Assembly: GCA_963965975.1 (NCBI GenBank)
Contig: OZ014425.1
Location: forward strand, 1,749,501-1,813,500
Direction: 5' to 3'
Length of the DNA: 64,000 nt
Source: Xestospongia bergquistia
Lineage: Eukaryota; Porifera; Demospongiae; Haplosclerida; Petrosiidae
Each line of letters begins with the position of its first letter. The stretch's first letter is position 1. The translations under genes were made by a program, and so were the position numbers. Shown here one piece after another: positions 7,212 to 37,986 of the stretch. The notes below the pieces were generated by a model. The model saw only the letters and a list, made by a program, of their open reading frames with translations. It was not told the DNA's origin and ran no database searches.

Positions 7212-10200
7212 TTATGGAGTAGCAATTTGACATGTAATTTTACAGTCAAATTTACCACAATCACAGAAGGCATCTACACTTCCTTTGAACGAAATGTGGT
7301 GTCCCAAATGGCAAGTTTGCATACACTGATAACAACAGCCAGCTCTTGGATTAGTAAAGCAAGAATGACAAAAGTAAAAAGGTTGCCTTAGATATTGATT
7401 TCCAGTGAAATAGTAGGTGCATACTTTGGTCTGGTGAGAACTAATGCCACAATGACAGATAAAATCTTCAGCATCATGATGAGCGACTAATTCATGTCCA
7501 GAATGGCATTCATTAGCACATACTTCACAACAACCCATTCTTGAATCTTTACCCCAGCAGGACAGGCACTCGTACCATTTCTGATTCCTTGCAGCACTTC
7601 CATATTGATCGTATGTGCATTTCAATCCAATATTACAACGTATAGCACAGCACTCTAAGCCACAGTCACAAAATGCATTTCTGATTCCACTGTCTTCTAT
7701 ATCGTGACCTCTGTGACAATTTTCAACACAGGCTCTGCAACATCCCCTTTTACTCTCAGTAAAACAGGTGTGACATCGATAGAACGGCTGGTCAACATAT
7801 TCTTTCATTGTTGTAGTGTAGGTGCATACAACATTGTTATCAATAGATGACTCTTCTTCATCACTTTCTTTAAAAGTTACATCGTGATTGTTAGCACCAC
7901 AGTCACAGAAGAAATCTCCTGATTCATGCAGCACTAAATTATGTCCCGAATGGCATTGTTCAGCACATACTACACAGCACCCATAACCTGATTCTTCATC
8001 CCAACAAGATAGGCATTCATACCATTTCTGATTCCTGGCATCACTTCCATATCGATCATATGTGCATTTTGATCCGATCTTACAACGTGTGGCACAGTAT
8101 TCTAGGCCACAGTCACAAAATGCATTTATTATTCCACTGTATTCCACATTGTGACCATTATGACATTTTTCGACACAGGCACTACAACATCCCTCACTAC
8201 TTTCTGAGAAACAGGTGTGACATCGATAGAATGGCTGGTAAACATATTCTTTCTTTGTTGTAGTGTAGGTACATACAACATTGTTATCAATAGATGACTC
8301 TTCTTCATCGCTTTCTTTAAGAGTTACATTGTGACTGTTAGCACCACAGTCGCAGGAGAAATCTCCTGATTCATGAGACACTAAATTATGCCCTAAATGG
8401 CACTCTTTGGCACATACTACACAACACCCATAACCTGATTCTTCATCCCAACAAGAAAGGCATTCGTACCATTTCTGATTCCGGGCAACACTTCCATATT
8501 GATCGTATGTGCATTTGGGTCCAATCTTACAACGTGTGGCACAGCACTCTAAACCACAGTCACAGAATGCATTTCTGATTCCACTGTCTTCTATATCATG
8601 ACCTCTGTGACAATTTTCGACACAGGCTCTGCAACATCCCTTATTACTCTCAGTAAAACAGGTGTGACATCGATAGAACGGCTGGTAAACATATTCTTTC
8701 ATTTTTGTAGTGTAGGTGCATACAACATCGCTATCAATAGATGACTCTTCTTCATCACTTTCTTTAAAAGTTACATCGTGATTGTTAGCACCACAGTCAC
8801 AGAAGAAATCTCCTGATTCATGAGACACTAAATTATGCCCTAAATGGCATTCTTCAGCACATACTACACAGCACCCATAACCTGATTCTTCATCCCAGCA
8901 GGACAGGCATTCATACCATTTCTGATTCATGGAAGCACTTCCATATTGATCGTATGTGCATTTTGATCCGATCTTACAACGTATGGCACAGCACTCTAAG
9001 CCACAGTCACAAAATGCATTTGAAAATTCACTGTCTTCTATATCGTGACCTCTGTGACAATTCTCAACACAGGCTTTACAACATCCCTTGTTACTCTCAG
9101 TAAAACAGGTGTGACATTGATAGAACGGCTGGTCAACATATTCTTTCTTTGTTGTTGTATAGGTACATATAGCATCAATGCTGTAGTTTGGTGTTACTTC
9201 GTGACTGTTAGCACCACAGTCACAGGAGAAATCTCCTGATTCATGCAGCACTAAATTATGTCCAGAATGGCATTGTTCAGCACATACTACACAGCACCCA
9301 TAACCTGATTCTTCATCCCAACAAGATAGGCATTCATACCATTTCTGATTCCTGGCAGCACTTCCATGTTGATCATAGGTGCATTTGGGTCCAATCTTAC
9401 AACGTGTGGCACAGCACTCTAAGCCACAGTCACAGAATGCATTTCTGATTCCACTGTCTTCTATATCGTGACCTCTGTGACAATTTTCGACACAGGCTCT
9501 GCAACATCCCTTATTACTCTCAGTAAAACAGGTGTGACATCGATAGAACGGCTGGTCAACATATTCTTTCTTTGTTGTTGTATAGGTACATATAGCATCA
9601 ATGCTGTAGTTTGGTGTTACTTCGTGACTGTTAGCACCACAGTCACAGGAGAAATCTCCTGATTCATGCAGCACTAAATTATGTCCAGAATGGCATTGTT
9701 CAGCACATACTACACAGCACCCATAACCTGATTCTTCATCCCAACAAGATAGGCATTCATACCATTTCTGATTCCTGGCAGCACTTCCATGTTGATCATA
9801 GGTGCATTTGGGTCCAATCTTACAACGTGTGGCACAGCACTCTAAGCCACAGTCACAGAATGCATTTCTGATTCCACTGTCTTCTATATCGTGACCTCTG
9901 TGACAATTTTCGACACAGGCTCTGCAACATCCCTTATTACTCTCAGTAAAACAGGTGTGACATCGATAGAACGGCTGGTCAACATATTCTTTCTTTGTTG
10001 TAGTGTAGGTGCATACAACATTGTTATCAATAGATGACTCTTCTTCATCGCTTTCTTTAAGAGTTATATTGTGACTGTTAGCACCACAGTCACAGGAGAA
10101 ATCTCCTGATTCATGAGACACTAAATTATGTCCTGAATGGCATTCTTCAGCACATACTACACAGCACCCATAACCTGATTCTTCATCCCAACAAGACAGG

Positions 10201-11521
10201 CATTCGTACCATTTCTGATTCCTGGCAGCACTCCCATATTGATCATATGTGCATTTCGATCCGATCTTACAACGTATGGCACAGCACTCTAAGCCACAGT
10301 CACAAAATGCATTTGTGAATTCACTGTTTTCTATATCGTGATCTCTGTGACAATTCTCAACACAGGCTTTACAACATCCCTTGTTACTCTCAGTAAAACA
10401 GGTGTGACATTGATAGAACGGCTGGTCAACATATTCTTTCTTTGTTGTTGTATAGGTACATATAGCATCAATGCTGTAGTTTGGTGTTACTTCGTGACTG
10501 TTAGCACCACAGTCACAGGAGAAATCTCCTGATTCATGCAGCACTAAATTATGTCCAGAATGGCATTGTTCAGCACATACTACACAGCACCCATAACCTG
10601 ATTCTTCATCCCAACAGGACAGGCATTCATACCATTTCTGATTCCTAGCATTACTGCCATATTGATCATAGGTACACTTACATCCAAACTTACAAGGTAT
10701 GGCACAGTACTCTAGGCCACAGTCACAAAAAGCACTGGATATTCCACTGTATTCCACATTGTGACCTATGTGACATTTCTCTATACATGGAGTACAACAA
10801 TGTGTGTTTTTGCAGGTATGGCATTTATAAATATGCTGTTTAATAGTATTGGTTTTGACAGAACCATATGTACAGGCAGTGCCACTTGTTGCCATAGCAC
10901 TCAGGTGAGATGCTGAATGATTGTTTAAACCACAGTCACATGAAAACTCTTTTGCTTCATTTAGTACTAGTTCATGTCCTGAGTGACATTCTTTAGCACA
11001 GAGCTTGCAACAGCCAAAATCAGATGTATTTGGCCAGCATGTTTGACATGAATACCATTCTTGTAACTTTAAGGTATTACCATATTGGTCATAAGTGCAT
11101 CGCTTTGTTTTGTGGCTATTTTCACCACAGTCGCAGATGAAATTTGTGGAACCAAGAGGCACTAAACTATGTCCCAAGTGGCATTCATTAGCACATGTTT
11201 CACAACAGCTAAATTCAGATTTCTCTCCCCTGCATGTGTAACATTCAAATCCTCTCATTTTGGACATGTTAGAATGTTCATCATGTTCATCAAAAGAACA
11301 TTTATAACCAATTTTACAGTTATTTTCACATTCTTTGAGACCACAGTCACAAAAGCCATTAAAAATACCACAATACAGAATGTTATGGCTAATATGACAG
11401 TTTTGAATGCAGGAGACACAGCAACTTTCAGTAGAACAATCAACACAACGATAGAATGGTTGCTTAACATGTTTTGTCTTCATTAATGAATATGTACAAA
11501 CTCCATCACAGGTCATTTTGT
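7212..11521 (-). CDS. giant gene, last exon: array of 20 UBR-box zinc fingers
   Basis: This exon encodes about 1,435 residues made almost wholly of tandem UBR-box zinc fingers (about 70 residues each). Each unit starts C-T-Y, continues with a C-x2-C pair (for example CHTC, CLSC), a GCC-x2-C motif, C-H-x-G-H, and ends F-x-CDCG. I count 20. The middle ones alternate in pairs between a CTYTTT type and a CTYDQ type, giving DNA repeats of roughly 420-450 bp. In known proteins (UBR1-UBR7) a single UBR box binds basic N-terminal degrons and feeds the Arg/N-degron pathway. I see no RING, HECT or other E3 domain here. There is no ATG at the 5' end of the frame. An acceptor (TTTCTTACACAG, ending at 11522) joins it in phase to the donor after 11611, so it is the 3' end of the giant gene and not a separate gene. 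TAA stop at 7214-7212. Confidence 0.85.
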
Positions 11522-11610
11522 CTGTGTAAGAAAAGAACAATAATGTATAATGAATTATTAATATATTGTTCCAAAATTAGTATATGACATACATGTACAA
11601 AAAAACTCAC
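11522..11610 (-). other. 89-nt intron joining the repeat exon to the UBR-array exon
   Basis: The upstream frame ends ...AAA GGA G|GTGAGT and the downstream frame starts CTTACACAG|AC AAA ATG. The split codon becomes GAC (Asp), and both open frames continue without a stop. Donor and acceptor match the consensus, and neither flanking frame has an ATG at its junction. Without splicing, the upstream frame would end at 11558 after 17 unremarkable residues. Confidence 0.8.
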
Positions 11611-14600
11611 CTCCTTTTGTGCTTTTCTTAATGATCTCAACTGATAATAACTCTGATTCTTCACTAAGTTGCTGCACAGATATCTCACTTGAAGAATATC
11701 CACAAAGAACTTGTTGACTTAAAGCTTTAAAATCAAAAATTTGAATCTTCCCTGTTTCAACCTCTAATGCAACTTGATGCTCCCAAATCTTTTCTTGACA
11801 TTTGTCTGGAGTTAAATTTGCATATTCTACAATGTTCTTGTTAGTGCATTTTATGAATACTTTGAGAGAAGAGGCAGAGTGAAGCTTAGATTTGATCGAG
11901 GCAAGATTAAGTTGAAGTTTCATTCTGTTTTTATCCATAGAAAAATGATGGCTATAGACAGATATTGGTAAAGCAGGATCACTAACATCAACAAGTTCAA
12001 CCTGGTATTGATAATCCTCTCTTTCTTCAAAAATTACTTGGATAGTGTTATCTTCTTTTTGGTAGTTCATCTCCATTGCCAAGAACTCAATTTTAGTTTC
12101 TCTGCTAGGGCTAGAAATACAATTAGGACCCATAGCAGTTATCTGGACAATGTACTCCCTTCTGTTAAGACTTTTCATGTCATTTTCACTCAAAAAGTAT
12201 ACTGAAGGTAAATAATCAGTGCATTTGACAATACTACGAGGTGGATAGCATTCCTCAAGTAAGGCCAAAACATCTTTGTCATCAACAGTTATGATTTTTG
12301 TGAGAATTGGCACTCGGTTTTCCTTATCACAGAACTCAATCTTGTAGGCCTGTGCATGTGGGACTTGTGTCCAGATTACGATGAGGGTTCCAACTTCCAA
12401 TGAATAGAAAACATTCAATGCTTTTAGAGTTGGAAGTAGATTTATTTCATTGGAAAGTAAAGGATCACTATCCAGGGTATTTTCATCACCTTTTGCAATG
12501 ACCATGCTTTCAAGGCAGATAAGTTCTTGTACAAATTGTTTTCTTACTTCCTCAAGAGAAAATTCATGAGAGAAAACAACTTCGCCATCTGGACACAGCT
12601 GGTAACTTGTTAGATCAAGAGAATGTTCTATTAGATACAATGGAGTCTTTCCTTCAGGAGTACATTTCAAAATTACAGACAACCCTGACTTAAAATTGTC
12701 AATAGATTTAAATGGTAATGTCAGCTTTGCTTCCAAATTTTCATTAAGTAAACATGACAACTTTGGAAGATGCTGCTGGTTGAATAATTGCATACATTCA
12801 TGATGCTCACTACTAGTTCCTTCAGATGAAATGGAAAGAGCTCTTATTTGGTATGGACTTTGAAAGTCAGCAAGTGAATCAGGGAGTTTGAGAGAAAAAC
12901 CAATATTGTCATTATGAGAATGGGATAGTAATTGACGGTTCAATACTCTTTTGGTTGTGTCTACTATTTCAACAAGGTATTCAGCAGCATTTTCAACTGT
13001 TTCAATCTCACCAGATATGCACTTTTCAAGACAATTGTTGTAAGGACGTAAAATTACAGGAGGATGAAGATCTTGGCAATGGTTAATCTCTTTGAAAAAC
13101 TCACAGTGAAGTATTTTGCCAAGAAGAGTAACTTCTGTTCTCACAAGTTCAGTACCAGTACGTAAACGGAAACGACTCATTTGTTGTTCATACGTTGGAA
13201 TGATGTCTTTATTAAACTCAGGCTGGACAGTCATTCTAACACAGGCTTTAATGGAAACCTTAATAGAGATTGCCCTTGAAACCACTTTGGAGAAATTATC
13301 ATCTTTTATAATAAGTGGGTCATTACTAGCACGCCTCCTTATATATTTGAGCTGTAGTTCATTTTCAGTAATTTTGCCTTTAGAAACTACAGTAGCAATG
13401 ATGGTGACTATGTAATCAACTTTACCTTCTTCTTTCTCAGTGACTTCATCATCCATTTTCCAGCTTAACGAAATGTTATTGTTTGAGTCAAGTTTCATAT
13501 CAAGTTCCTTTACAGTCAATAGTTCAGATACTTCTTGTTGAGCTAGGTTGCTGATTTCATCTATATGAACTAGATCTTTCATCATTTGGTCTACTTCAGG
13601 AGCGACATCATCTCCATCACAAGCAGAGCACATGTCCTTTATAAACTGTCCTATACCAATTACTGCAGCGTATGGTCCAAACAACTCTGCAAATGGAGGT
13701 ACTTTGTTTGAATGTTCAATTGGTTCACACTCCCATTTTCCACTTTCTTTATCAAAATAAAGCTTCCCTCCAATAATGCTAGCTGCAATACCATGATCAC
13801 TCTTAACTTTAATACAATTAAAAATGCACCGAAAAAAGCTCCCAATAGCTCTCCCAGCTGTTACAACTCCTCTTGCCACCATTCTAGCATCTTCAATGAC
13901 AGCTCTTCCAGCATCAACAACATTTCTTACAGCACTTTTGACAATATTTCCAGGGATTTTTATAAGTTCATACCTGACCACATTCCAAAGTGTTTCAAAA
14001 ATTACAGCATAATTTTCTTTTGCAAGTTTTAAAAGAAACTGTGACCAACTGTCTGCCAGAAACCCTGTTGGGATTCGTATACGAATAGGAATTTCCAATG
14101 CTTCAATTTCAAATCCCAAGAACATTACCCCAAGTACAATAGTGAAGTTACATATCATCAGATATCTGTCTGGATCTGGATTCTCATCAGTACTAAATCT
14201 TACTTTAACTGTAGGAGTTGGCCTTAGACTTTTGACAAGTCTATATAAGAATATAGCATATTTTTTAATACAACCCAGGAATTCACCAAACAATTCAAAA
14301 GGATCAAGTCCAAGTTCTAACTTTACAACTCGAAAGTCCTTTTTTCTCCATCTTACAGTAATTGACGGCTGGAAGAATTTTACAAGACAAAGTTTTGGAG
14401 AACCTTCGAAGTAAGTTCGCCCACGGCGACCACGTTCTTTCTTCTTGATCATTGACAGTGTACCCTGCAAAAATTGCCATCCAAAGAGCTCTATACCAAC
14501 TTCAAATCTGGTACATCCTTTCTCATGGACTATTGCTGGTCCATTTTTAAACTCAAGATCTGTAAACTTCACAAAAGCAACTTTTATTTTTTCACATGCA

Positions 14601-17600
14601 TATCCTTTCATCCACTCTAGCTTACGCTTCTTACTAAAATGAGCATGGACTGAGAACTCTTTGTCTAAGGAAAAAACAGAAGCTTTTATGTTGAGGTCAT
14701 ATCCCTCTTTATATTTTTCTCCTGAATCAGTGAAACTTTTTGAAGCAAAATAAAGTGTGCCCCCTTTCTTCAAAACAAGATCAAGTGATTCCAGATCTTC
14801 TGATTCTATGTCAACAGCTTTTAGAAGACTACATACAGATATTTCTTCAGATAATGTTATTTTCAAAAGTGTTAGTTTTGTAGCTTCAAAATGTAGTAGA
14901 CAATTAAAGCAGATGTTTGCTTTTAAGTCAAGTAGTCCTGTAATTTTGACTTCTGGTTTCTTTTTTTTCTTTAAGATTCCTTCAACTTTAAGGTTTCTTA
15001 CAGTTCCTTTGATCTTCTTCAATCCATGTATAGAATCACTTTCAAATCCTTTAGCTGTAAGAGTTGCTGCATCATTCTGTATATTAAGTTCAGCATCAAC
15101 ACAAAGTCTGCCACTGCCTAGTGCTATTGAGACCTTACCTTTTGCTAACAAGTGCTGCTTTCCTTTTTCCCATGTATAGCGAAACATGAGATTGTTCACT
15201 TTAATTTCATCATTTTCTGTCAACAACCATTCTGACAGATGGCCACAGAATATCAACTTTGGTTTTGCATTCTTCAAGTTTCCTTTGCTGATACAAACAC
15301 CTATTTGTATCTCATTCAGAGAGGAAGTGTCAGTGATTTCTTTCAATCCATGAAAAAAGCTATTTTCAGAGAAGGAAAGAGCTCCTGTTAGAATTACACC
15401 TGAACCTTCTATAGATGACTTCTCTAGTAAATCTAAATGAGAAGATGAATATAAATTGAGAGAAGGTAGAGATGTCTTGTCCTTATGGCTTTCTAAAGTT
15501 GCTTGAAAGATGTCGGTAATTTTATTATTCAGAGTTTCAAGTGAACTCTCAGGGAGAGAATAAACAAGAAGTTCTGCTGACTTAATTTGTATTAAGTTGT
15601 CAATTTCAGAGAACATGCCAGCATCTGACAGACTTGAGAACTTAAAATTCTTAACTTGAACAGATAAGACAAAGTTTGGATGTTTATTTATTCCCCTTTC
15701 AATGAACATACTTCCTGATCCCAAGCCCTTGATACTACCATCTATCAACATACAAGGTTTTGACATGTTGAAAGCTACTTTGGCTGATGTTAGGGATAAC
15801 ATACGTATGTTGGTAGGTGCAAGATCAGTAAACTCATTGTTACTTTTTTGGCCAAATTTTGCAGCAGTGGAAAGAGGTAGATCAGATTTTAGTGTTCCAA
15901 TAATAACACTTTCTTCTGAAATGTACATTGCACCCTTTATCTCAAAGCTATTGAAGGAAACTAAACAACTTAAGTAAAGGGACTGATAATCTTTTTCCCA
16001 TATATACTGTGCAACTGCTTTGTTGATGTGGATGTCTTCAGCAAGAGAAAAGTCAGCAACATCACCATATAATTCAAGTTTTGGTGTTTTGTCATTTTTC
16101 TGTTTGGTAACATTAATTCCAAATTTCATTTTAGTTGATTGATTCCCTGTTATCTTTTGTAATTTACTAAGAGGACTATCCTTCATAATATCAATGTCAC
16201 AAAATAAGATAAAGCCAAATGAATCTGAAGGAAGTGAAATTTTGGGATCTGCAAAAGTATTTAAGGATGGAAGATTTAATAAATCAGGGAAAGATTTCAA
16301 GATATTTTTGATAACACCCTTAGCAGATGAATCCTGTAAGCAATACATTAACATTTCTGCAGACTTTATTTTCAGTAAATTGTCTACTTGTGTAAGAGTG
16401 TCACTTAGACTAGAAAATTGAAATCCTTTATCAAGTGACATAGACAATGCAAACCCTTTACTATTTAGGTCAATGAACAAACCACCACTTCCTAAATTAG
16501 TAACACGACCTTCCACAAATATAGTAGACTTTGTTGTGTTCATCAGAACTGAAGCAGACTCAAATGAAAATCCATGTTTATCAAACAAATTGAATGCATC
16601 TTTATCAAAGAGAGCATCAGTTACAGTAGTCAAATTAACATGTGAAGTGATATGACCGTTAAAGAAAGAATCACACTCACTGTCAGATAGTAACATTGTT
16701 CCTTTTGCAGACACTCCAATCTCTTCAAAGGACACATTGAAGTAGAGACTTAAGGTAACATCTGACTCTTTTTTGCTGTAGTTGAACATGGCCTTCTCAA
16801 CAGTAATAGAGCTAAGAAATAGCTGTGACACTTCACCACAAAGTTCCATGGTAATGTCTTTTTCACCACTGGTCATCCACATACCAACCTCAATGGTGTC
16901 TCTTGACTGACTAACTTCAGACAATCGCTTCAGAAGGCCACTTTCAGTCTTCAGCAGGACTTTACCAACAAAGAGGAGACCAGAACATTCTTTTAAAACA
17001 TCAGTTGTCATATTTTCTGGTACCTTTACACCTGAGAAGGCCTTTGAAGACAAGACATGCTTTTCTTTATTAACAGAGCGGGATTTGTGTGTATCTACTG
17101 CACTAAAGAACACATTGGTCAATATTTCTTCAACGTTCTCCAAGGAATACTTTGGAAGAGAGAATGCTAGGAGACGAGCATACTTTATATCTAAAAGCTT
17201 GTCGATTTCTGAGAGATTATCAGAGAGGTGTTCAAACAGAAAATTGTCCTCAAGTTGAACTGAAAGTGCATATCCTGCCTTGCTTTTGTCTCCTCTTTCA
17301 TAGAAGAGACTTCCCGATCCTAGATTGGAGATTTTACCTTCCACTAGCAAACATTCTTTTGAGATGTTAAAAGCCATTGAAACTTCCAAGGCTGCCCCAA
17401 AGGATATGCTGTGTTCAGGAGAGGGTTTTACCAGCTCCTGATGTGAAATGGTGCCAACAATGCTGGAAAGATTAAGATCTGATGAAAGCTTCCCAATGAT
17501 AATGGAGTCTTGATCTTTGTCCTCACACAGTGACATTGTTCCTTCTCCGGTCACTCCGATCTCTTCAAAGGTCACACTAAAGTAGAGATTTAAGGAAGTA

Positions 17601-20600
17601 CCTGACTCTTTTTGGCTGTAGTTGAACGTGGCCTTTTCTACAGTAAATGAGCCAATGGACAGCTCTGAGACTTCGCCACAGATTTCCATACTTGTCTCTT
17701 TTTCACCAGTACTCACCCACATACCTACATCAATGGTATCACTAGACTTACTAACATCAGACAGTCGTTTCAGGAGGCCACTTTCAGTCTTCAGCAAGAC
17801 TTTACCAACGAATAGGAGGCCAGAACATTCTTTTGAAACATCAGTTGTCATATTTTCTGGCACAGTTAGACCTGAAAATGTCTTCAAAGACACAAGTTGC
17901 TTGTCTTTGCTAACAGAGTGAGACTTGTGTTTTTCTATTGCACTAGAGAAAAGATTGGTCAGTATTTCCTCAATTTGGTGGAAAGAATTGTTTGGAAGTG
18001 AGAATGCTAGGAGACGAGCATACTTTATACCTAAAAGCTTGTCAATTTCTGAGAGATTATCAGAGAGGTGTTCAAACAGAAAATTGTCCTCAAGTTGAAC
18101 TGAAAGTGCATATCCTGCCTTGCTTTTGTCTCCTCTTTCATAGAAGAGACTTCCCGATCCTAGATTGGAGATTTTACCTTCCACTAACAAACATTCCTTT
18201 GTGATGTTAAAAGCCATTGATACTTCCAAGGCTGCCCCAAAAGACATGCTGTGTTCAGTAGAGGGTTTTACCAGCTCCTGATGTGAAATGGTGCCAACAA
18301 TGCTGGAAAGATTAAGATCTGATGAAAGCTTCCCAATGATAATGGAGTCTTGATCTTTGTCCTCACACAGTGACATTGTTCCTTCTCCGGTCACTCCGAT
18401 CTCTTCAAAGGTCACACTAAAGTAGAGATTTAAGGAAGTACCTGACTCTTTTTGGCTGTAGTTGAATATGGCCTTTTCTACAGTAAATGAGCCAATGGAC
18501 AGCTCTGAGACTTCGCCACAGATTTCCATACTTGTCTCTTTTTCACCAGTACTCACCCACATACCTACATCAATGGTATCGCTAGACTTACTAACATCAG
18601 ACAGTCGTTTCAGGAGGCCACTTTCAGTCTTTAGCAAGACTTTACCAACGAATAGGAGGCCAGAACATTCTTTTGAAACATCAGTTGTCATATTTTCTGG
18701 CACAGTTAGACCTGAAAATGTCTTCAAAGACACAAGTTGCTTGTCTTTGCTAACAGAGTGAGACTTGTGTTTTTCTATTGCACTAGAGAAAAGATTGGTC
18801 AGTATTTCCTCAATTTGGTGGAAAGAATTGTTTGGAAGGGAGAATGCTAGGAGACGAGCATACTTTATATCTAAAAGCTTGTCAATTTCTGAGAGATTAT
18901 CAGAGAGATGTTCAAACAGAAAATTGTCCTCAAGTTGAACTGAAAGTGCATATCCTGCCTTGCTTTTGTCTCCTCTTTCATAGAAGAGACTTCCCGATCC
19001 TAGATTGGAGATTTTACCTTCCACTAGCAAACATTCTTTTGAGATGTTGAAAGCCATTGAAACTTCCAAGGCTGCCCCAAAGGACATGCTGTGTTCAGGA
19101 GAGGGTTTTACCAGCTCCTGATGTGAAATGGTGCCAACAATGCTAGAAAGATTAAGATCTGATGAAAGCTTCCCAATGATAATGGAGTCTTGATCTTTGT
19201 CCTCACACAGTGACATTGTTCCTTCTCCGGTCACTCCGATCTCTTCAAAGGTCACGCTAAAGTAGAGATTTAAGGAAGTACCTGACTCTTTTTGGCTGTA
19301 GCTGAATGTGGCCTTTTCCACAGTAAATGAGCCGAGGGACAGCTCTGAGACTTCGCCACAGATTTCCATACTTGTCTCTTTTTCACCAGTACTCACCCAC
19401 ATACCTACATCAATGGTATCGCTAGATTGACTAACGTCAGATAGTCGTTTCAGAAGGCCACTTTCAGTCTTCAGCAGAACTTTACCAACAAATAGGAGGC
19501 CAGAACATTCTTTTGAAACATCAGTTGTCATATTTTCTGGTACTATTAGACCTGAAAAGGTCTTCAAAGACACAAGTTGCTTGTCTTTGCTAAGAGAGTG
19601 AGACTTGTGTTTTTCTATTGCACTAGAGAAAAGACTGGTCAGTATTTCCTCAATTTGGTGGAAAGAATTGTTGGGAAGGGAGAATGCTAGGAGACGAGCA
19701 TACTTTATATCTAAAAGCTTGTCAATTTCTGAGAGATTATTAGAGAGGTGTTCAAACAGAAAATTGTCCTCAAGTTGAACTGAAAGTGCATATCCTGCCT
19801 TGCTTTTGTCTCCTCTTTCATAGAAGAGACTTCCCGATCCTAAATTGGAGATTTTACCTTCCACTAGCAAACATTCTTTTGTGATGTTAAAAGCCATTGA
19901 AACTTCCAAGGCTGCCCCAAAAGACATGCTGTGTTCAGGAGAGGGTTTTACCAGCTCCTGATGTGAAATGGTGCCAAAAATGCTGGAAAGATTAAGATCT
20001 GATGAAAGTTTCCCAATGATAATGGAGTCTTGATCTTTGTCCTCACACAGTGACATTGTTCCTTCTCCGGTCACTCCAATCTCTTCAAAGGTCATACTAA
20101 AGTAGAGATTTAAGGAAGTACTTGACTCATTTTGGCTGTAGTTGAATGTGGCCTTTTCCACAGTAAATGAGCCAATGGACAGCTCTGAGACTTCACCACA
20201 GATTTCCATACTTGTCTCTTTTTCACCAGTACTCACCCACATACCTACATCAATGGTATCGCTAGACTTACTAACATCAGACAGTCGTTTCAGGAGGCCA
20301 CTTTCAGTCTTTAGCAAGACTTTACCAACGAATAGGAGGCCAGAACATTCTTTTGAAACATCAGTTGTCATATTTTCTGGCACAGTTAGACCTGAGAAGG
20401 CCTTCAAAGACACAAGTTGCTTGTCTTTGCTAACAGAGTGAAACTTGTGTTTTTCTATTGCACTAGAGAAAAGACTGGTCAGTATTTCCTCAATTTGGTG
20501 GAAAGAATTGTTTGGAAGGGAGAATGCTAGGAGACGAGCATACTTTATATCTAAAAGCTTGTCAATTTCTGAGAGATTATCAGAGAGATGTTCAAACAGA

Positions 20601-23600: not shown

Positions 23601-26600
23601 ATACCTACATCAATGGTATCGCTAGATTGACTAATGTCAGATAGTCGTTTCAGAAGGCCACTTTCAGTCTTCAGCAGAACTTTACCAACAAATAGGAGGC
23701 CAGAACATTCTTTTGAAACATCAGTTGTCATATTTTCTGGTACTATTAGACCTGAAAAGGTCTTCAAAGACACAAGTTGCTTGTCTTTGCTAACAGAGTG
23801 AGACTTGTGTTTTTCTATTGCACTAGAGAAAAGACTGGTCAGTATTTCCTCAATTTGGTGGAAAGAATTGTTTGGAAGGGAGAATGCTAGGAGACGAGCA
23901 TACTTTATATCTAAAAGCTTGTCAATTTCTGAGAGATTATCAGAGAGGTGTTCAAACAGAAAATTGTCCTCAAGTTGAACTGAAAGTGCATATCCTGCCT
24001 TGCTTTTGTCTCCTCTTTCATAGAAGAGACTTCCCGATCCTAGATTGGAGATTTTACCTTCCACTAGCAAACATTCCTTTGTGATGTTAAAAGCCATTGA
24101 TACTTCCAAGGCTGCCCCAAAAGACATGCTGTGTTCAGTAGAGGGTTTTACCAGCTCCTGATGTGAAATGGTGCCAACAATGCTGGAAAGATTAAGATCT
24201 GATGAAAGCTTCCCAATGATAATGGAGTCTTGATCTTTGTCCTCACACAGTGACATTGTTCCTTCTCCGGTCACTCCAATCTCTTCAAAGGTCACACTAA
24301 AGTAGAGATTTAAGGAAGTACCTGACTCTTTTTGGCTGTAGTTGAATATGGCCTTTTCTACAGTAAATGAGCCGAGGGACAGCTCTGAGACTTCGCCACA
24401 GATTTTAATACTTGTCTCTTTTTCACCAGTACTCACCCACATACCTACATCAATGGTATCGCTAGATTGACTAATGTCAGATAGTCGTTTCAGGAGGCCA
24501 CTTTCAGTCTTCAGCAGAACTTTACCAACAAATAGGAGGCCAGAACATTCTTTTGAAACATCAGTTGTCATATTTTCTGGTACTATTAGACCTGAAAAGG
24601 TCTTCAAAGACACAAGTTGCTTGTCTTTGCTAAGAGAGTGAGACTTGTGTTTTTCTATTGCACTAGAGAAAAGACTGGTCAGTATTTCCTCAATTTGGTG
24701 GAAAGAATTGTTTGGAAGGGAGAATGCTAGGAGACGAGCATACTTTATATCTAAAAGCTTGTCAATTTCTGAGAGATTATTAGAGAGGTGTTCAAACAGA
24801 AAATTGTCCTCAAGTTGAACTGAAAGTGCATATCCTGCCTTGCTTTTGTCTCCTCTTTCATAGAAGAGACTTCCCGATCCTAAATTGGAGATTTTACCTT
24901 CCACTAGCAAACATTCTTTTGTGATGTTAAAAGCCATTGAAACTTCCAAGGCTGCCCCAAAAGACATGCTGTGTTCAGGAGAGGGTTTTACCAGCTCCTG
25001 ATGTGAAATGGTGCCAAAAATGCTGGAAAGATTAAGATCTGATGAAAGTTTCCCAATGATAATGGAGTCTTGATCTTTGTCCTCACACAGTGACATTGTT
25101 CCTTCTCCGGTCACTCCAATCTCTTCAAAGGTCATACTAAAGTAGAGATTTAAGGAAGTACTTGACTCATTTTGGCTGTAGTTGAATATGGCCTTTTCTA
25201 CAGTAAATGAGCCGAGGGACAGCTCTGAGACTTCGCCACAGATTTCCATACTTGTCTCTTTTTCACCAGTACTCACCCACATACCTACATCAATGGTATC
25301 GCTAGATTGACTAATGTCAGATAGTCGTTTCAGAAGGCCACTTTCAGTCTTCAGCAGAACTTTACCAACAAATAGGAGGCCAGAACATTCTTTTGAAACA
25401 TCAGTTGTCATATTTTCTGGTACTATTAGACCTGAAAAGGTCTTCAAAGACACAAGTTGCTTGTCTTTGCTAACAGAGTGAGACTTGTGTTTTTCTATTG
25501 CACTAGAGAAAAGACTGGTCAGTATTTCCTCAATTTGGTGGAAAGAATTGTTTGGAAGGGAGAATGCTAGGAGACGAGCATACTTTATATCTAAAAGCTT
25601 GTCAATTTCTGAGAGATTATCAGAGAGGTGTTCAAACAGAAAATTGTCCTCAAGTTGAACTGAAAGTGCATATCCTGCCTTGCTTTTGTCTCCTCTTTCA
25701 TAGAAGAGACTTCCCGATCCTAGATTGGAGATTTTACCTTCCACTAGCAAACATTCCTTTGTGATGTTAAAAGCCATTGATACTTCCAAGGCTGCCCCAA
25801 AAGACATGCTGTGTTCAGTAGAGGGTTTTACCAGCTCCTGATGTGAAATGGTGCCAACAATGCTGGAAAGATTAAGATCTGATGAAAGCTTCCCAATGAT
25901 AATGGAGTCTTGATCTTTGTCCTCACACAGTGACATTGTTCCTTCTCCGGTCACTCCAATCTCTTCAAAGGTCACACTAAAGTAGAGATTTAAGGAAGTA
26001 CCTGACTCTTTTTGGCTGTAGTTGAATATGGCCTTTTCTACAGTAAATGAGCCGAGGGACAGCTCTGAGACTTCGCCACAGATTTTAATACTTGTCTCTT
26101 TTTCACCAGTACTCACCCACATACCTACATCAATGGTATCGCTAGATTGACTAATGTCAGATAGTCGTTTCAGGAGGCCACTTTCAGTCTTCAGCAGAAC
26201 TTTACCAACAAATAGGAGGCCAGAACATTCTTTTGAAACATCAGTTGTCATATTTTCTGGTACTATTAGACCTGAAAAGGTCTTCAAAGACACAAGTTGC
26301 TTGTCTTTGCTAAGAGAGTGAGACTTGTGTTTTTCTATTGCACTAGAGAAAAGACTGGTCAGTATTTCCTCAATTTGGTGGAAAGAATTGTTTGGAAGGG
26401 AGAATGCTAGGAGACGAGCATACTTTATATCTAAAAGCTTGTCAATTTCTGAGAGATTATTAGAGAGGTGTTCAAACAGAAAATTGTCCTCAAGTTGAAC
26501 TGAAAGTGCATATCCTGCCTTGCTTTTGTCTCCTCTTTCATAGAAGAGACTTCCCGATCCTAAATTGGAGATTTTACCTTCCACTAGCAAACATTCTTTT

Positions 26601-29600
26601 GTGATGTTAAAAGCCATTGAAACTTCCAAGGCTGCCCCAAAAGACATGCTGTGTTCAGGAGAGGGTTTTACCAGCTCCTGATGTGAAATGGTGCCAAAAA
26701 TGCTGGAAAGATTAAGATCTGATGAAAGTTTCCCAATGATAATGGAGTCTTGATCTTTGTCCTCACACAGTGACATTGTTCCTTCTCCGGTCACTCCAAT
26801 CTCTTCAAAGGTCATACTAAAGTAGAGATTTAAGGAAGTACTTGACTCATTTTGGCTGTAGTTGAATATGGCCTTTTCTACAGTAAATGAGCCGAGGGAC
26901 AGCTCTGAGACTTCGCCACAGATTTCCATACTTGTCTCTTTTTCACCAGTACTCACCCACATACCTACATCAATGGTATCGCTAGATTGACTAATGTCAG
27001 ATAGTCGTTTCAGAAGGCCACTTTCAGTCTTCAGCAGAACTTTACCAACAAATAGGAGGCCAGAACATTCTTTTGAAACATCAGTTGTCATATTTTCTGG
27101 TACTATTAGACCTGAAAAGGTCTTCAAAGACACAAGTTGCTTGTCTTTGCTAACAGAGTGAGACTTGTGTTTTTCTATTGCACTAGAGAAAAGACTGGTC
27201 AGTATTTCCTCAATTTGGTGGAAAGAATTGTTTGGAAGGGAGAATGCTAGGAGACGAGCATACTTTATATCTAAAAGCTTGTCAATTTCTGAGAGATTAT
27301 CAGAGAGGTGTTCAAACAGAAAATTGTCCTCAAGTTGAACTGAAAGTGCATATCCTGCCTTGCTTTTGTCTCCTCTTTCATAGAAGAGACTTCCCGATCC
27401 TAGATTGGAGATTTTACCTTCCACTAGCAAACATTCCTTTGTGATGTTAAAAGCCATTGATACTTCCAAGGCTGCCCCAAAAGACATGCTGTGTTCAGTA
27501 GAGGGTTTTACCAGCTCCTGATGTGAAATGGTGCCAACAATGCTGGAAAGATTAAGATCTGATGAAAGCTTCCCAATGATAATGGAGTCTTGATCTTTGT
27601 CCTCACACAGTGACATTGTTCCTTCTCCGGTCACTCCAATCTCTTCAAAGGTCACACTAAAGTAGAGATTTAAGGAAGTACCTGACTCTTTTTGGCTGTA
27701 GTTGAATATGGCCTTTTCTACAGTAAATGAGCCGAGGGACAGCTCTGAGACTTCGCCACAGATTTTAATACTTGTCTCTTTTTCACCAGTACTCACCCAC
27801 ATACCTACATCAATGGTATCGCTAGATTGACTAATGTCAGATAGTCGTTTCAGGAGGCCACTTTCAGTCTTCAGCAGAACTTTACCAACAAATAGGAGGC
27901 CAGAACATTCTTTTGAAACATCAGTTGTCATATTTTCTGGTACTATTAGACCTGAAAAGGTCTTCAAAGACACAAGTTGCTTGTCTTTGCTAAGAGAGTG
28001 AGACTTGTGTTTTTCTATTGCACTAGAGAAAAGACTGGTCAGTATTTCCTCAATTTGGTGGAAAGAATTGTTTGGAAGGGAGAATGCTAGGAGACGAGCA
28101 TACTTTATATCTAAAAGCTTGTCAATTTCTGAGAGATTATTAGAGAGGTGTTCAAACAGAAAATTGTCCTCAAGTTGAACTGAAAGTGCATATCCTGCCT
28201 TGCTTTTGTCTCCTCTTTCATAGAAGAGACTTCCCGATCCTAAATTGGAGATTTTACCTTCCACTAGCAAACATTCTTTTGTGATGTTAAAAGCCATTGA
28301 AACTTCCAAGGCTGCCCCAAAAGACATGCTGTGTTCAGGAGAGGGTTTTACCAGCTCCTGATGTGAAATGGTGCCAAAAATGCTGGAAAGATTAAGATCT
28401 GATGAAAGTTTCCCAATGATAATGGAGTCTTGATCTTTGTCCTCACACAGTGACATTGTTCCTTCTCCGGTCACTCCAATCTCTTCAAAGGTCATACTAA
28501 AGTAGAGATTTAAGGAAGTACTTGACTCATTTTGGCTGTAGTTGAATATGGCCTTTTCTACAGTAAATGAGCCGAGGGACAGCTCTGAGACTTCGCCACA
28601 GATTTCCATACTTGTCTCTTTTTCACCAGTACTCACCCACATACCTACATCAATGGTATCGCTAGATTGACTAATGTCAGATAGTCGTTTCAGAAGGCCA
28701 CTTTCAGTCTTCAGCAGAACTTTACCAACAAATAGGAGGCCAGAACATTCTTTTGAAACATCAGTTGTCATATTTTCTGGTACTATTAGACCTGAAAAGG
28801 TCTTCAAAGACACAAGTTGCTTGTCTTTGCTAACAGAGTGAAACTTGTGTTTTTCTATTGCACTAGAGAAAAGACTGGTCAGTATTTCCTCAATTTGGTG
28901 GAAAGAATTGTTTGGAAGGGAGAATGCTAGGAGACGAGCATACTTTATATCTAAAAGCTTGTCAATTTCTGAGAGATTATCAGAGAGGTGTTCAAACAGA
29001 AAATTGTCCTCAAGTTGAACTGAAAGTGCATATCCTGCCTTGCTTTTGTCTCCTCTTTCATAGAAGAGACTTCCCGATCCTAGATTGGAGATTTTACCTT
29101 CCACTAACAAACATTCCTTTGTGATGTTAAAAGCCATTGATACTTCCAAGGCTGCCCCAAAAGACATGCTGTGTTCAGTAGAGGGTTTTACCAGCTCCTG
29201 ATGTGAAATGGTGCCAACAATGCTGGAAAGATTAAGATCTGATGAAAGCTTCCCAATGATAATGGAGTCTTGATCTTTGTCCTCACACAGTGACATTGTT
29301 CCTTCTCCGGTCACTCCAATCTCTTCAAAGGTCACACTAAGGTAGAGATTTAAGGAAGTACCTGACTCTTTTTGGCTGTAGTTGAATATGGCCTTTTCTA
29401 CAGTAAATGAGCCGAGGGACAGCTCTGAGACTTCGCCACAGATTTTAATACTTGTCTCTTTTTCACCAGTACTCACCCACATACCTACATCAATGGTATC
29501 GCTAGATTGACTAATGTCAGATAGTCGTTTCAGGAGGCCACTTTCAGTCTTCAGCAGAACTTTACCAACGAATAGGAGGCCAGAACATTCTTTTGAAACA

Positions 29601-32600
29601 TCAGTTGTCATATTTTCTGGTACTATTAGACCTGAAAAGGTCTTTAAAGACACAAGCTGCTTATCTTTGCTAACAGAGTGAGACTTGTGTTTTTCTATTG
29701 CACTAGAGAAAAGACTGGTCAGTATTTCCTCAATTTGGTGGAAAGGATTGTTTGGAAGGGAGAATGCTAGGAGACGAGCATACTTTATATCTAAAAGCTT
29801 GTCAATTTCTGAGAGATTGTCAGAGAGATGTTCAAACAGAAAATTGTCCTCAAGTTGAACTGAAAGTGCATATCCTGCCTTGCTTTTGTCTCCTCTTTCA
29901 TAGAAGAGACTTCCCGATCCTAGATTGGAGATTTTACCTTCCACTAGCAAACATTCCTTTGTGATGTTAAAAGCCATTGAAACTTCCAAGGCTGCCCCAA
30001 AAGACATACTGTGTTCAGGAGAGGGTTTTACCAGCTCCTGATGTGAAATGGTGCCAACAATGCTGGAAAGATTAAGATCTGATGAAAGCTTCCCAATGAT
30101 AATGGAGTCTTGATCTTTGTCCTCACACAGTGACATTGTTCCTTCTCCGGTCACTCCGATCTCTTCAAAGGTCACACTAAAGTAGAGATTTAAGGAAGTA
30201 CCTGACTCTTTTTGGCTGTAGTTGAATATGGCCTTTTCTACAGTAAATGAGCCAATGGACAGCTCTGAGACTTCGCCACAGATTTCCATACTTGTCTCTT
30301 TTTCACCAGTACTCACCCACATACCTACATCAATGGTATCGCTAGATTGACTAACGTCAGACAGTCGTTTCAGGAGGCCACTTTCAGTCTTTAGCAAGAC
30401 TTTACCAACGAATAGGAGGCCAGAACATTCTTTTGAAACATCAGTTGTCATATTTTCTGGCACAGTTAGACCTGAGAAAGCCTTCAAAGACACAAGTTGC
30501 TTGTCTTTGCTAACAGAGTGAGACTTGTGTTTTTCTATTGCACTAGAGAAAAGATTGGTCAGTATTTCCTCAATTTGGTGGAAAGAATTGTTTGGAAGGG
30601 AGAATGCTAGGAGACGAGCATACTTTATATCTAAAAGCTTGTCAATTTCTGAGAGATTATAAGAGAAGTGTTCAAACAGAAAATTGTCCTCAAGTTGAAC
30701 TGAAAGTGCATATCCTGCCTTGCTTTTGTCTCCTCTTTCATAGAAGAGACTTCCCGATCCTAGATTGGAGATTTTACCTTCCACTAGCAAACATTCCTTT
30801 GTGATGTTAAAAGCCATTGAAACTTCCAAGGCTGCCCCAAAAGACATACTGTGTTCAGGAGAGGGTTTTACCAGCTCCTGATGTGAAATGGTGCCAACAA
30901 TGCTGGAAAGATTAAGATCTGATGAAAGCTTCCCAATGATAATGGAGTCTTGATCTTTGTCCTCACACAGTGACATTGTTCCTTCTCCGGTCACTCCGAT
31001 CTCTTCAAAGGTCACACTAAAGTAGAGATTTAAGGAAGTACCTGACTCTTTTTGGCTGTAGTTGAATATGGCCTTTTCTACAGTAAATGAGCCAATGGAC
31101 AGCTCTGAGACTTCGCCACAGATTTCCATACTTGTCTCTTTTTCACCAGTACTCACCCACATACCTACATCAATGGTATCGCTAGACTTACTAACATCAG
31201 ACAGTCGTTTCAGGAGGCCACTTTCAGTCTTTAGCAAGACTTTACCAACGAATAGGAGGCCAGAACATTCTTTTGAAACATCAGTTGTCATATTTTCTGG
31301 CACAGTTAGACCTGAGAAAGCCTTCAAAGACACAAGTTGCTTGTCTTTGCTAAGAGAGTGAGACTTGTGTTTTTCCATTGCACTAGAGAAAAGATTGGTC
31401 AGTATTTCCTCAATTTGGTGGAAAGAATTGTTTGGAAGGGAGAATGCTAGGAGACGAGCATACTTTATATCTAAAAGCTTGTCAATTTCTGAGAGATTAT
31501 CAGAGAAGTGTTCAAACAGAAAATTGTCCTCAAGTTGAACTGAAAGTGCATATCCTGCCTTGCTTTTGTCTCCTCTTTCATAGAAGAGACTTCCTGATCC
31601 TAGATTGCAGATTTTACCTTCCACTAGCAAACATTCTTTTGAGATGTTGAAAGCCATTGAAACTTCCAAGGCTGCCCCAAAGGACATGCTGTGTTCAGTA
31701 GAGGGTTTTACCAGCTCCTGATGTGAAATGGTGCCAACAATGCTAGAAAGATCAAGATCTGATGAAAGCTTCCCAATGATAATGGAGTCTTGATCTTTGT
31801 CCTCACACAGTGACATTGTTCCTTCTCCGGTCACTCCGATCTCTTCAAAGGTCACACTAAAGTAGAGATTTAAGGAAGTACCTGACTCTTTTTGGCTGTA
31901 GTTGAATGTGGCCTTTTCCACAGTAAATGAGCCGAGGGACAGCTCTGAGACTTCACCACAGATTTCCATACTTGTCTCTTTTTCACCAGTACTCACCCAC
32001 ATACCTACATCAATGGTATCGCTAGACTTACTAACATCAGACAGTCGTTTCAGGAGGCCACTTTCAGTCTTTAGCAAGACTTTACCAACGAATAGGAGGC
32101 CAGAACATTCTTTTGAAACATCAGTTGTCATATTTTCTGGCACAGTTAGACCTGAGAAGGCCTTTAAAGACACAAGTTGCTTGTCTTTGCTAACAGAGTG
32201 AGACTTGTGTTTTTCTATTGCACTAGAGAAAAGATTGGTCAGTATTTCCTCAATTTGGTGGAAAGAATCGTTTGGAAGGGAGAATGCTAGGAGACGAGCA
32301 TACTTTATATCTAAAAGCTTGTCAATTTCTGAGAGATTGTCAGAGAGGTGTTCAAACAGGAAATTGCCCTCAAGTTGAACTGAAAGTGCATATCCTGCCT
32401 TGCTTTTGTCTCCTCTTTCATAGAAGAGACTTCCCGATCCTAGATTGGAGATTTTACCTTCTACTAGCAAACATTCCTTTGTGATGTTAAAAGCCATTGA
32501 TACTTCCAAGGCTGCCCCAAAGGACATGCTGTGTTCAGGAGAGGGTTTTACCAGCTCCTGATGTGAAATGGTGCTAAGTATGCTAGAAAGATTAAGATCT

Positions 32601-33243
32601 GATGAAAGCTTCCCGATGATAATGGAGTCAGCATGTCTTTTGTCAGACAATAATACTGTTCCTATCGCAATCATTTGATTTTCTGAATATGAAATTTTGC
32701 AATGCAAGATAGGAGGTGTGATTGGGTTTATTTTTATGAAGACATCTTCTATTAATATTTTGCTATTAAAGGTTTTTGTGGTTTGCACTCTAAATTGTAC
32801 ATTATCATCATGAAAAAATTTGAGGGACTTATAAGAGATAGGTGTAGTGATACACATTATATCATTGTTGTTATCTTTGTATTTTATTAGAGAAAACATG
32901 GTTTTGAGGTTTTCTTTTGTCATGTGGGACAAACACTCTACTTTCAAATTTAAAGCACTGTTATAAGTTACCTTAATTCTATTTCTTTTCCATTTTTTGA
33001 TCACTTCATGTGTCTGCTCCTGGATTTCATCCAGTATAGCTACTTGGAACGATTCTGCAAATTTGATTAGTTGTTCACCACAATTAAAAATGCTATTCAT
33101 TGTATTAAGTAATGTCACACTACTACTCATGCAGACAACGGAATGAAGGAAATACTGTTCATTCTGGAAATGCAACCTTAATTGTTCTGATAAGCTTTCT
33201 TTACCACAAGAGTTGGTTCCAATGAATATTATATATTGCGAAC
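11611..33243 (-). CDS. giant gene, 21.6-kb exon: P-loop-like start, tandem beta-rich repeats, FN3-like region
   Basis: One uninterrupted exon of 21,633 nt encodes about 7,210 residues. In order along the predicted protein: a P-loop-like GTNSCGKES (residues about 96-104, with Glu where Walker A needs Ser/Thr); a unique region to about residue 290; then about 19 near-identical 280-residue repeats (to about residue 5,450). Each repeat has short alternating-hydrophobic strands and signatures such as GKLSSDLNLSS, GSGSLFYERG and VGMWVSTGEKE. Diverged versions of the repeat follow to about residue 6,200, then a hydrophobic/basic region (FGWQFLQGTL, FLADSWSQFL) and, in the last 650 residues, two stretches resembling fibronectin III (for example IVIWTQVPHAQAYKIEF). 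The repeat recalls poly-beta scaffold proteins, but I cannot assign a family. The frame opens at a non-ATG codon beside an acceptor (TTTTGTTTGCAG), so upstream exons are needed. The exon being open over this length is itself strong coding evidence. Confidence 0.9.
17160..32632 (-). repeat. 840-bp coding tandem repeat, about 19 copies
   Basis: Exactly 840 bp (280 codons) separates equivalent positions. For example the plus-strand string GATCTGATGAAAG recurs at about 17477, 18317, 19157 and every 840 bp to 32597 (with one T-to-C change preceding it near 31752). I see no indel in the array, so the frame is kept throughout. Copies differ by scattered substitutions, many of which change residues at a few recurrent sites (ST/SP in VKPSxEHS, Ile/Thr in NITKE/NISKE, Lys/Gln in SDVxKSSD). 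The block nearest 17.1 kb diverges sharply and grades into older versions of the same fold between about 14.9 and 17.1 kb. Confidence 0.95.
21841..28800 (-). repeat. 1,680-bp higher-order repeat (dimer of two 840-bp types)
   Basis: Within the 840-bp array two alternating unit types form a 1,680-bp dimer. One type has plus-strand GATTTTAATA with TAAGAGAGTG; the other has GATTTCCATA with TAACAGAGTG. Comparing line by line, the four dimers 21841-23520, 23521-25200, 25201-26880 and 26881-28560 look identical. The next dimer starts to differ near 28842. Related but less exact dimers occur at 19.3-21.8 kb. This is the expected mark of recent unequal crossing-over or conversion, or of an assembly built through a collapsed or expanded repeat. 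Confidence 0.9.
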
Positions 33244-36025: not shown

Positions 36026-37277
36026 CTTTATCCTGATATTTCATTTCAAGAAGTATAGCATCATTATCAGAAGCATCCATCAAATGAAAAAAAATCTAAA
36101 ATTATAATCAACAATATATACATTAAAGGACGTGCATGGTTACCTCTTCTGGTTGTGGAGATGTATCTTCAATAATTTCATGCACTTGTTCACTTGAATG
36201 CTCAGCATCAAGGAGCAACAATACTATTACTAATATTGGTAAACAGGCCAGGACACCATACCTATACAAGCATCATGAATAAATACTGATATGTATGATC
36301 ATTTACAGATAGAGACACATGTTTTAATTAATACACTGTAAAAATTAATATGTCATTTTAACAACTAATGTGTACATTACATGGATGGATTACTATGGAA
36401 TATGGAATTCTTATGAATTACTCATTGTATAATTTGTTGATATGTTATACTTTTATATAATAACAAATTATACAATGAGTAACTTGCACAAATTCTAATC
36501 TTCATAGTAATTTGTCCATGTAAAGTACAAATTAGTTGTTAAAATAACATATTCATTTTTACAGTGCACTAACCCTTAACTTGAAAGAGTCTGACTAGGC
36601 TATAATAATACCCAATTCAAAGTAAAGGCTGGCAAAATGATTTGACACAAATCATGGTGAGTTTGCAGCAAACCATATTGTTATACAAAATTAATGAATG
36701 ACGGGCTTTTAGGCCAGTAGTAGAGAAAATGGTCAGTTAGGTTTTTAACATAAACATCATGAAAACATTCCTTTTATCGAGTTAAATGATTAACAAGCTT
36801 TTACATAACAATGTCAATGACCTATTACATTTAACATATATAAAGTTAGCATATTTAGATATAAGATCAGTGTATATAAACAGATACACTTTTCCACCAC
36901 TAATACACAACTGTGAATTTATAATTGCAATGTTAGATAAATGTCTAGCCCTTTTTCCTCACCACTAGCCTAATAGGTTAAGATAAACATGGACACTTTA
37001 AAGTCATCATTGGGAATGTAGTATCACAAAAACTCCCCTTTTTCTTTACACCACTTGTCATCAACATGTTGTTACATATGGTACTAGAAAAACTTCCCTT
37101 TTCCTCCACACTAGTTTAATTATGATGTGATTTTATTACATAAATGTAACTTATACACTTTTAAGTCTGTCACATTTAACATTTTTCACTGTAAACATAA
37201 TTGATCTCATACTTTGCATACCTGTGGTTCTGGGTTCTAGTAAAGCAATTATTGCATTCCTATGAGTGACCAAACCA

Positions 37278-37461: not shown

Positions 37462-37518
<57 letters not shown>

Positions 37519-37766
37519 ATATAATATAATAGGAATAAATGGGACACAGATGGTTTGCCTCACACAGTGATAGGCTAGATTTAATGACAAATGCAACTTT
37601 GATCTCCTAGTCTGTCCAGGATAAAGTAAACTTTTTAGCATTTGTAGTATAATTTCTGTATACTTAGCTTCTAACTTAGTCTTTGATCTTATTCACCTTC
37701 ACACTGTTCTAGACATCTTATACACATCTTTTAATTGTTTAAAATTTGTCTACATAGAAATACTCC

Positions 37767-37846
<80 letters not shown>

Positions 37847-37986
37847 TTTATATATATATATATATATACATATTATCATGTAATATGTATCATGTAATAA
37901 CTTACAACTTACCAACTCCAAAACTGGATGTTGAGTAACACAATGGCATAGGCCATCATAAATATAAGAGTTGAACCTTTGGCCAT
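36026..37986 (-). CDS. giant gene, predicted 5' exons 1-3 (two hydrophobic segments)
   Basis: Three small - strand exons join in phase to the giant exon. Exon 1 (37986-37913) starts at ATG in a good context (ACCATGG) and reads MAKGSTLIFMMAYAIVLL..., ending at GTAAGT in phase 2. Exon 2 (36261-36144) follows TTGTATAG, completes a Trp codon, and reads YGVLACLPILVIVLLLL, then an acidic tail, ending at GTAACC in phase 0. Exon 3 (36095-36026) follows ATTTTAG and ends AAAG|GTAATG in phase 1, matching the two leading bases of the giant exon. Residues about 7-18 and 26-41 are strongly hydrophobic, so an N-terminal membrane anchor, hairpin or cleaved signal is likely. Introns are 1,651, 48 and 2,782 nt. 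Phase agreement at three junctions plus the Kozak-like start supports this, but extra exons cannot be excluded. Confidence 0.6.
36334..36566. mobile_element. MITE: 233-bp element with long terminal inverted repeats, intron 1 of the giant gene
   Basis: The element starts CACTGTAAAAATTAATATG and ends CATATTCATTTTTACAGTG. The two halves pair along almost their whole length: TTTTAACAACTAATGTGTAC against its mirror near 36525-36545, and TACTCATTGTATAATTTGTT near 36420 against AACAAATTATACAATGAGTA near 36463. There is no coding capacity. The terminal CACTG...CAGTG resembles hAT-like ends, but no convincing target-site duplication was found, so the superfamily is open. Confidence 0.65.
36731..37186. 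repeat. dispersed repeat R, copy 1
   Basis: This sequence (contains ACATAAACATCATGAAA, ATTCCTTTTATCGAG, AACATGGACACTTTAAAGTC) is repeated with moderate divergence at about 37992-38570 and 39291-39745. Short Met-starting frames in it are not conserved between copies, so it is not a gene. Copy 1 lies in intron 1 of the giant gene. Confidence 0.65.
37280..37330. repeat. (TA)n microsatellite
   Basis: Near-pure AT dinucleotide tract in intron 1 of the giant gene. Confidence 0.9.
37464..37530. repeat. (TA)n microsatellite
   Basis: Second AT tract, ending in a short ATAAT repeat run. Confidence 0.9.
37770..37868. repeat. (TA)n microsatellite
   Basis: Third and longest AT tract in intron 1. It gives rise to a spurious Ile/Tyr repeat frame. 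Three long AT tracts within 600 bp are prone to length errors in assembly. Confidence 0.9.

Follow-up and report, generated by a model that had tools for sequence, protein, structure and literature searches.

UBR boxes are known as single substrate-reading domains, mostly of ubiquitin ligases, and both the F-box protein FBXO11 and the mainly helical UBR4 carry just one. In human UBR4, Phe1671 and Phe1713 are required for the box to bind N-terminal Tyr and Arg peptides, Asp1715 contacts the peptide N-terminus, and affinities for the strongest ligands lie at 18 to 56 micromolar (PMC10687169, in excerpt); UBR4 also carries an atypical hemiRING (PMC10873205, in excerpt). No array of UBR boxes was found among open-licence papers as represented by their titles and the opening of their abstracts. 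Here we describe gene A, on the minus strand of a 64,000-nucleotide stretch of the sponge Xestospongia bergquistia (assembly GCA_963965975.1, contig OZ014425.1, positions 1,749,501 to 1,813,500; "the window", in whose own numbering coordinates are given), which is predicted to combine two N-terminal hydrophobic segments, 19 copies of a 280-residue beta-rich unit and an array of 20 UBR boxes in one giant protein. An earlier reading of the bare sequence, referred to below as the original prediction, knew of no described protein with this layout, and a limited search of the open-licence literature likewise returned none. Our best explanation overall, to which we assign a probability of roughly 0.45, is that the product would act as a ligase-free, membrane-anchored, multivalent receptor or scaffold for N-degrons.

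Two long stop-free frames dominate the locus, one of 7,234 residues (frame 1, 11558-33262, minus) and one of 1,454 residues (frame 2, 7212-11576, minus), which overlap at 11558-11576. Together with three short upstream exons on the same strand they give a five-exon model (74 + 118 + 70 + 21,633 + 4,310 nucleotides (nt)) that stays open from ATG to stop and encodes a predicted 8,734 residues (966 kDa). The phases match at all four junctions and all four introns have GT...AG ends, which bears out the roughly 8,700-residue protein and 21.6-kb coding exon originally proposed. Exon 1 (37913..37986) holds the ATG, in the context ACCATGG, and the first hydrophobic segment, and ends in an open frame at a GT donor; exon 2 (36144..36261), also open, holds the second, and by hydrophobicity the two segments lie at residues 2-48, as foreseen. 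The 70-nt exon 3 (36026..36095) is open as well and is unchanged in the paralogue described below. Introns 1 (1,651 nt, 36262-37912), 2 (48 nt, 36096-36143) and 3 (2,782 nt, 33244-36025) separate these exons from exon 4 (11611..33243), which comprises an N-terminal region, the 19 tandem units (16673..32632), two diverged units (units 20 and 21, 15173..16672; 29% and 34% identity to unit 19) and a C-terminal part (11611..15172). The C-terminal part has a hydrophobic stretch at about 14084-14167 and returned no credible Pfam match and no PDB sequence match. Intron 4 (89 nt, 11522..11610) bridges the two giant frames and leads into exon 5 (7212..11521), which carries the UBR boxes and the stop codon.

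The sponge's own genome (146.5 Mb, 21 contigs), when searched, yields one closely related copy, the tandem paralogue B; it shares the contig of A and lies roughly 1.5 to 17 kb past the window's right end. At least 27 matches to a C-terminal query and at least 27 to an N-terminal query (28 candidates scored each) all fall in A or B. B keeps the ATG, its ACCATGG context, the five exons and the four introns with their GT and AG ends; exon 1 is identical at 67 of 74 nt and is followed by GTAAGT, and a 39-nt gap in exon 2 is a multiple of three. B's giant exon carries four canonical units, its open frame running to 3,040 residues; the UBR frame of B has 993. From unit 20 on, exon 4 is 96.1% identical between the two genes over 5,043 nt with one 3-nt gap, and the first 600 nt of intron 3 show 54% identity with 13 gaps in a rough alignment. 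The pair is under purifying selection. Over unit 20 and everything after it in exon 4, the ratio of nonsynonymous to synonymous divergence (dN/dS) comes to 0.31 (5,055 sites, with values between 0.17 and 0.67 in five sub-blocks); the N-terminal region gives 0.46, and the UBR exon, from few sites, 0.51 at one end and 0.40 at the other. A separate search with the last 1,984 residues of frame 1 gave no homologue among 8,000 candidates scored, and we count it as uninformative because a 95%-identical paralogue exists in the genome.

The 20-fold UBR-box array stands as first described. The zf-UBR profile (PF02207) scores 372 bits on exon 5 (cut-off 25.2; E 8e-114) and matches 20 stretches of it, a motif count also gives 20, and the closest PDB chains to the boxes are those of UBR4, with E values of 2e-12 (a-type box) and 7e-9 (b-type box). 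When the UBR4 ligand residues are mapped onto the array by alignment, position 1671 is aromatic in eight of the 20 boxes, position 1713 is Phe in 12 and position 1715 is Asp in 19. All three coincide in boxes 6, 8, 10, 12, 14, 16, 18 and 20. A protein search places five relatives of the UBR exon (P0006-P0010) at 76-84% identity, and among their motif-detected boxes the three residues are kept together in 9 of 22 (P0006), 8 of 16 (P0007), 5 of 14 (P0008), 4 of 13 (P0009) and 5 of 11 (P0010). Two successive box pairs of A are still 99.3% identical in DNA. Within the genome, a zf-UBR search scoring 43 candidates gave at least 29 matches, 24 in A and B, two on contig C1 and three on contig C8, an incomplete set that is smaller than the number of boxes counted in A and B. 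The C1 locus is a stand-alone three-box UBR frame of 268 residues (L053:4965-5771). It aligns with boxes 18-20 of A at 50% identity over 208 residues (E 5e-74) and ends at the same point; by eye, its boxes 1 and 3 keep the aromatic residue, Phe and Asp, and its box 2 lacks them.

No ligase domain was recognised by profile alongside these boxes. Neither HECT nor RING turned up when Pfam was run against exon 5 (E up to 1) and, within exon 4, against 11558-17512 and 29411-33262, a scan that leaves out the units lying between these two stretches; the same pieces gave no F-box match. PDB searches of exon 5 and parts of exon 4 return UBR-box stretches or nothing, the hemiRING not having been searched with a model of its own.

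The repeat of exon 4 is exactly 280 residues long in all 19 tandem copies, and AlphaFold2 models it as beta structure, so the identical-length beta-rich repeats first described stand as proposed. Mean amino-acid identity within the array is 0.947. Four unit pairs in a row, each of 1,680 nt, have the same DNA sequence, which makes the copy number of A in this assembly less sure than its architecture. Unit number varies among A and its relatives (19, 18, 16, 12 and 4, with 19 in A and 4 in B), and the units in long arrays evolve in concert, each array being homogenised. The 280-residue unit has no credible relative in Pfam, NCBIfam or the PDB, and an internal two-fold symmetry of the unit is not significant in five register tests (best E 0.1). 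Over the whole protein DUF4265 exceeds its cut-off of 27 bits with 36.1 (E 7e-9), yet none of the individual stretches does so; we therefore attribute the score to chance, as many weak matches to near-identical repeats added together. We judge the sub-cut-off Flavodoxin_3 match in the repeats (E 9e-6) in the same way, along with the best hits of single-unit and C-terminal pieces, namely Pfc11 (E 0.009) and HPD (E 0.15) in Pfam and CheA (E 0.009) in NCBIfam. The unit is an unclassified beta-repeat.

Profile searches with the repeat and the N-terminal region had been suggested as a check; they yield no credible family. At the N-terminus there is a sub-threshold match to AAA_15 (19.9 bits, cut-off 32.1; E 6e-4). 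This match covers the motif GTNSCGKES (33194..33220, minus), which had been called a degenerate P-loop. The motif itself is there, but a working P-loop is unsupported: it reads GTNSCGKES unchanged in the relative P0003, STSSCGKES in B and GTSSYGKER in P0004, none of A, P0003, B and P0004 has the S or T after GK that an intact Walker A (GxxxxGK[ST]) would have, and B has also lost the first G. The motif is probably not functional. FN3-like stretches, also claimed, find no counterpart among Pfam profiles, with no FN3 match in 11558-16000 (E up to 1), 11613-13102 or 13100-15127 (both E up to 10).

In the mechanism we favor, the N-terminal hydrophobic pair would anchor the protein in a membrane and leave the remainder in the cytosol, where UBR boxes act in known proteins. 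The beta-repeat array would then form a long spacer, rigid or grooved, that can lengthen or shorten freely, and the UBR array would act as a multivalent receptor, its ligands being proteins that expose a destabilising N-terminus. From box 6 on, alternate boxes would read aromatic or arginine N-termini with the residues that UBR4 uses, and the intervening boxes may be structural spacers or may bind something else. Since a single UBR4 box binds in tens of micromolar at best, the array would gain its grip by avidity. Without a ligase, the protein would gather substrates at the membrane or present them to other machinery and perform no ubiquitination of its own. As the last three boxes match the C1 gene, a three-box module probably joined the beta-repeat gene as its last exon first and then expanded into the array as pairs of boxes were duplicated. 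That the UBR array binds protein N-termini seems to us an even bet; that the protein as a whole is a membrane-anchored multivalent scaffold is slightly less probable. The alternating ligand residues make N-terminus reading directly testable with single recombinant boxes. It is conceivable, if quite unlikely, that the sponge has evolved a ligase-free "N-terminus net", in which an expandable beta arm of new fold (more than 200 strands, possibly with a lipid groove) would reach from the membrane to a 20-box array. Avidity would let this array catch proteins that have been proteolysed or arginylated, and the alternation of competent with non-competent boxes would be by design.

Several points weigh against the receptor or scaffold explanation and the gene model beneath it. 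In 12 of the 20 boxes one or more of the three UBR4 determinants is missing, and the alternation that is strict from box 6 on in A and P0006 is looser in P0007-P0010. Membrane anchoring is read from hydrophobicity alone, the correspondence of box residues to UBR4 from sequence alignment, and the gene model of A from its DNA sequence. A hidden ligase-like domain may be present, as the fold models cover neither the first 200 residues of the protein nor the C-terminal part of exon 4. The four units of B are not homogenised (identity 0.82 within B, 0.85 between B and A). Finally, frame 2 contains an in-frame ATG at 11516, 41 nt past the stop of frame 1; with this well-placed start and a stand-alone relative on C1, exon 5 could be a separate reading unit.

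The incomplete boxes, together with the drifting copy number of the units, would also suit a mechanical or surface giant in the manner of titin, AHNAK or the mucins, in which the repeats serve as a spacer or spring and the UBR boxes as zinc-binding contacts that read no N-degron. This would leave unexplained why eight of the boxes keep all three determinants in a regular pattern that recurs in the three-box gene, and we consider such a role unlikely.

The predicted fold of the repeat bears on a further alternative, in which the array is a lipid conduit, the protein being an N-terminally anchored bridge-like lipid transfer protein and the UBR array its distal docking module. Structure prediction of the unit, which had been proposed as a check, gives a long antiparallel beta meander with a mean local confidence score (pLDDT) of 77, a predicted template-modelling score (pTM) of 0.75 and about 12 strands plus a long loop per 280 residues. 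This reading of the fold is taken from a 390-residue model only; a larger, 840-residue model (pLDDT 64.5, pTM 0.51) is too weak for any use except a count of strand alternation. Among the matches listed in four fold searches the nearest folds, all weak, are the sheets of apoB, LptD, VDAC and usher proteins, and the unit model has no confident PDB fold match. The meander and its weak neighbors, the hydrophobic N-terminus, and a hydrophobic/polar alternation above that of shuffled strands (2.31 against 1.56 over 24 strands of the weaker 840-residue model) are what a conduit would lead one to expect. The same 840-residue model, however, has some strands that are hydrophobic on both faces, and the 12-strand unit differs from the five-strand-plus-loop unit of the RBG superfamily of bridge-like proteins (PMC7613979, in excerpt). 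No Chorein_N or other RBG family is matched in Pfam, including a Chorein_N-like first unit sought in 32630-33259 at E up to 10, where a distant version would be missed. VPS13, ATG2 and BLTP structures are absent among the best 50 matches listed in each of the four fold searches, to which we give no weight as exclusion. On balance, a lipid conduit appears improbable.

That gene A is a single gene spanning both giant frames is, from its sequence, very probable, and phase, splice-site strength and conservation in the tandem paralogue all support it as originally argued. Paralogue B keeps the exons, introns and start context under purifying selection, and intron 4 diverges faster than its flanks: 11 of its 89 sites differ between A and B, against 12 of 300 in the adjoining exon 4 and 8 of 300 in exon 5, or three to five times the divergence. 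The splice sites proposed for intron 4, scored by simply counting consensus matches, rank first among 17 in-frame GT-AG combinations, the runners-up being two donors that use the same acceptor and score one point lower. Both halves are very likely neighbors in other relatives too, as paired protein records from the two ends share the size of their longest contig (1,538,468 bases for P0003 and P0006, 335,303 for P0004 and P0007, 437,947 for P0005 and P0008); P0003, P0004 and P0005 match the C-terminal part of exon 4 at 99%, 90% and 88% identity. The original prediction had also argued that neither long frame starts with ATG. Both frames are indeed open, but frame 2 has its in-frame ATG at 11516, so a missing ATG at the frame start is by itself no proof of one gene. 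An operon-like pair would end the beta-repeat protein at 11558 and translate the UBR array from that ATG, perhaps after spliced-leader trans-splicing to the acceptor at 11522, and the three-box UBR gene that stands alone on C1 is a precedent for an independent array. Such an arrangement would have to fit a normal 3' end and a promoter into little room in 41 nt, and it runs counter to the kept, in-phase donor within frame 1 (GAG|GTGAGT, with GTAAGT in B) and to the intron-like divergence of the segment between the frames; we rate it as a poor prospect. An assembly artefact or decaying repeat locus is barely credible, for although four identical unit pairs stand in succession and another assembly with 18 units has no such run, 21.7 kb remain open, the gene pair is under purifying selection, the same layout occurs in other assemblies, and the doubt is restricted to the exact copy number.

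The surroundings of gene A add some observations. Upstream of it lies a 214-residue open frame (40233-40877, minus) with no Pfam match at E up to 0.01, and a copia-type retrotransposon with gag, integrase and reverse transcriptase occupies two long frames at 49800-53799 (minus). CLASP-like exons seem to be repeated along the plus strand of the window, at 3276-4334, 59794-60228, 60793-61503 and 63233-64000; CLASP_N matches fall at 59794-60228, and the other three stretches we tentatively take to be CLASP exons. By eye, 63233-64000 is a near-repeat of 3276-4334, and the 1.2 kb that directly follow the window match 4140-5303 at 92% identity. The giant gene and its CLASP-like neighbor may have been duplicated together. 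Elsewhere in the genome, the mitochondrial contig C21 (18,997 bp) carries COX1, with nine TGA codons within the matched frame. Read with code 4, it also has a 78-residue open frame whose match is ATP synthase subunit C (E 1.6e-13), and the combination of this code with atp9 in the mitochondrial genome is a mark of sponges. COX1-like stretches with stops on the large contig C6 (3154917-3155898 and 3199148-3200446) are probably nuclear copies of mitochondrial DNA.

Compared with known systems, gene A shares features with several and the full layout with none of them. With the bridge-like lipid transfer proteins (VPS13, ATG2 and BLTP1-3), outlined in part in PMC7613979, it has in common its repeats and would share a membrane-facing N-terminus and a long, perhaps amphipathic antiparallel beta-sheet. 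It differs from them in lacking a Chorein_N match, in the plan of its unit and in the absence of a confident fold match. We know of no UBR array in the RBG superfamily. FBXO11 resembles A in the sequence of its UBR box (E 5e-11). A very long coding exon of near-identical repeats is something that A shares with AHNAK and other giant single-exon repeat proteins, but the AHNAK repeat is unrelated to that of A and AHNAK has no UBR boxes. In gene A a 280-residue unit changes copy number and homogenises in frame inside one 21.6-kb exon, which makes it a clean case for concerted evolution. A further likeness is to UBR4 and its plant counterpart BIG, which are also giant proteins; among PDB chains the box of UBR4 is the nearest in sequence. 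Yet these have one box where A has 20, their best matching stretches in the PDB search with exon 5 are confined to that box, and A, built of beta-repeats, has no ligase domain by Pfam, unlike UBR4; a 20-box array without an evident ligase would show the reading of protein N-termini put to use for capture or scaffolding.

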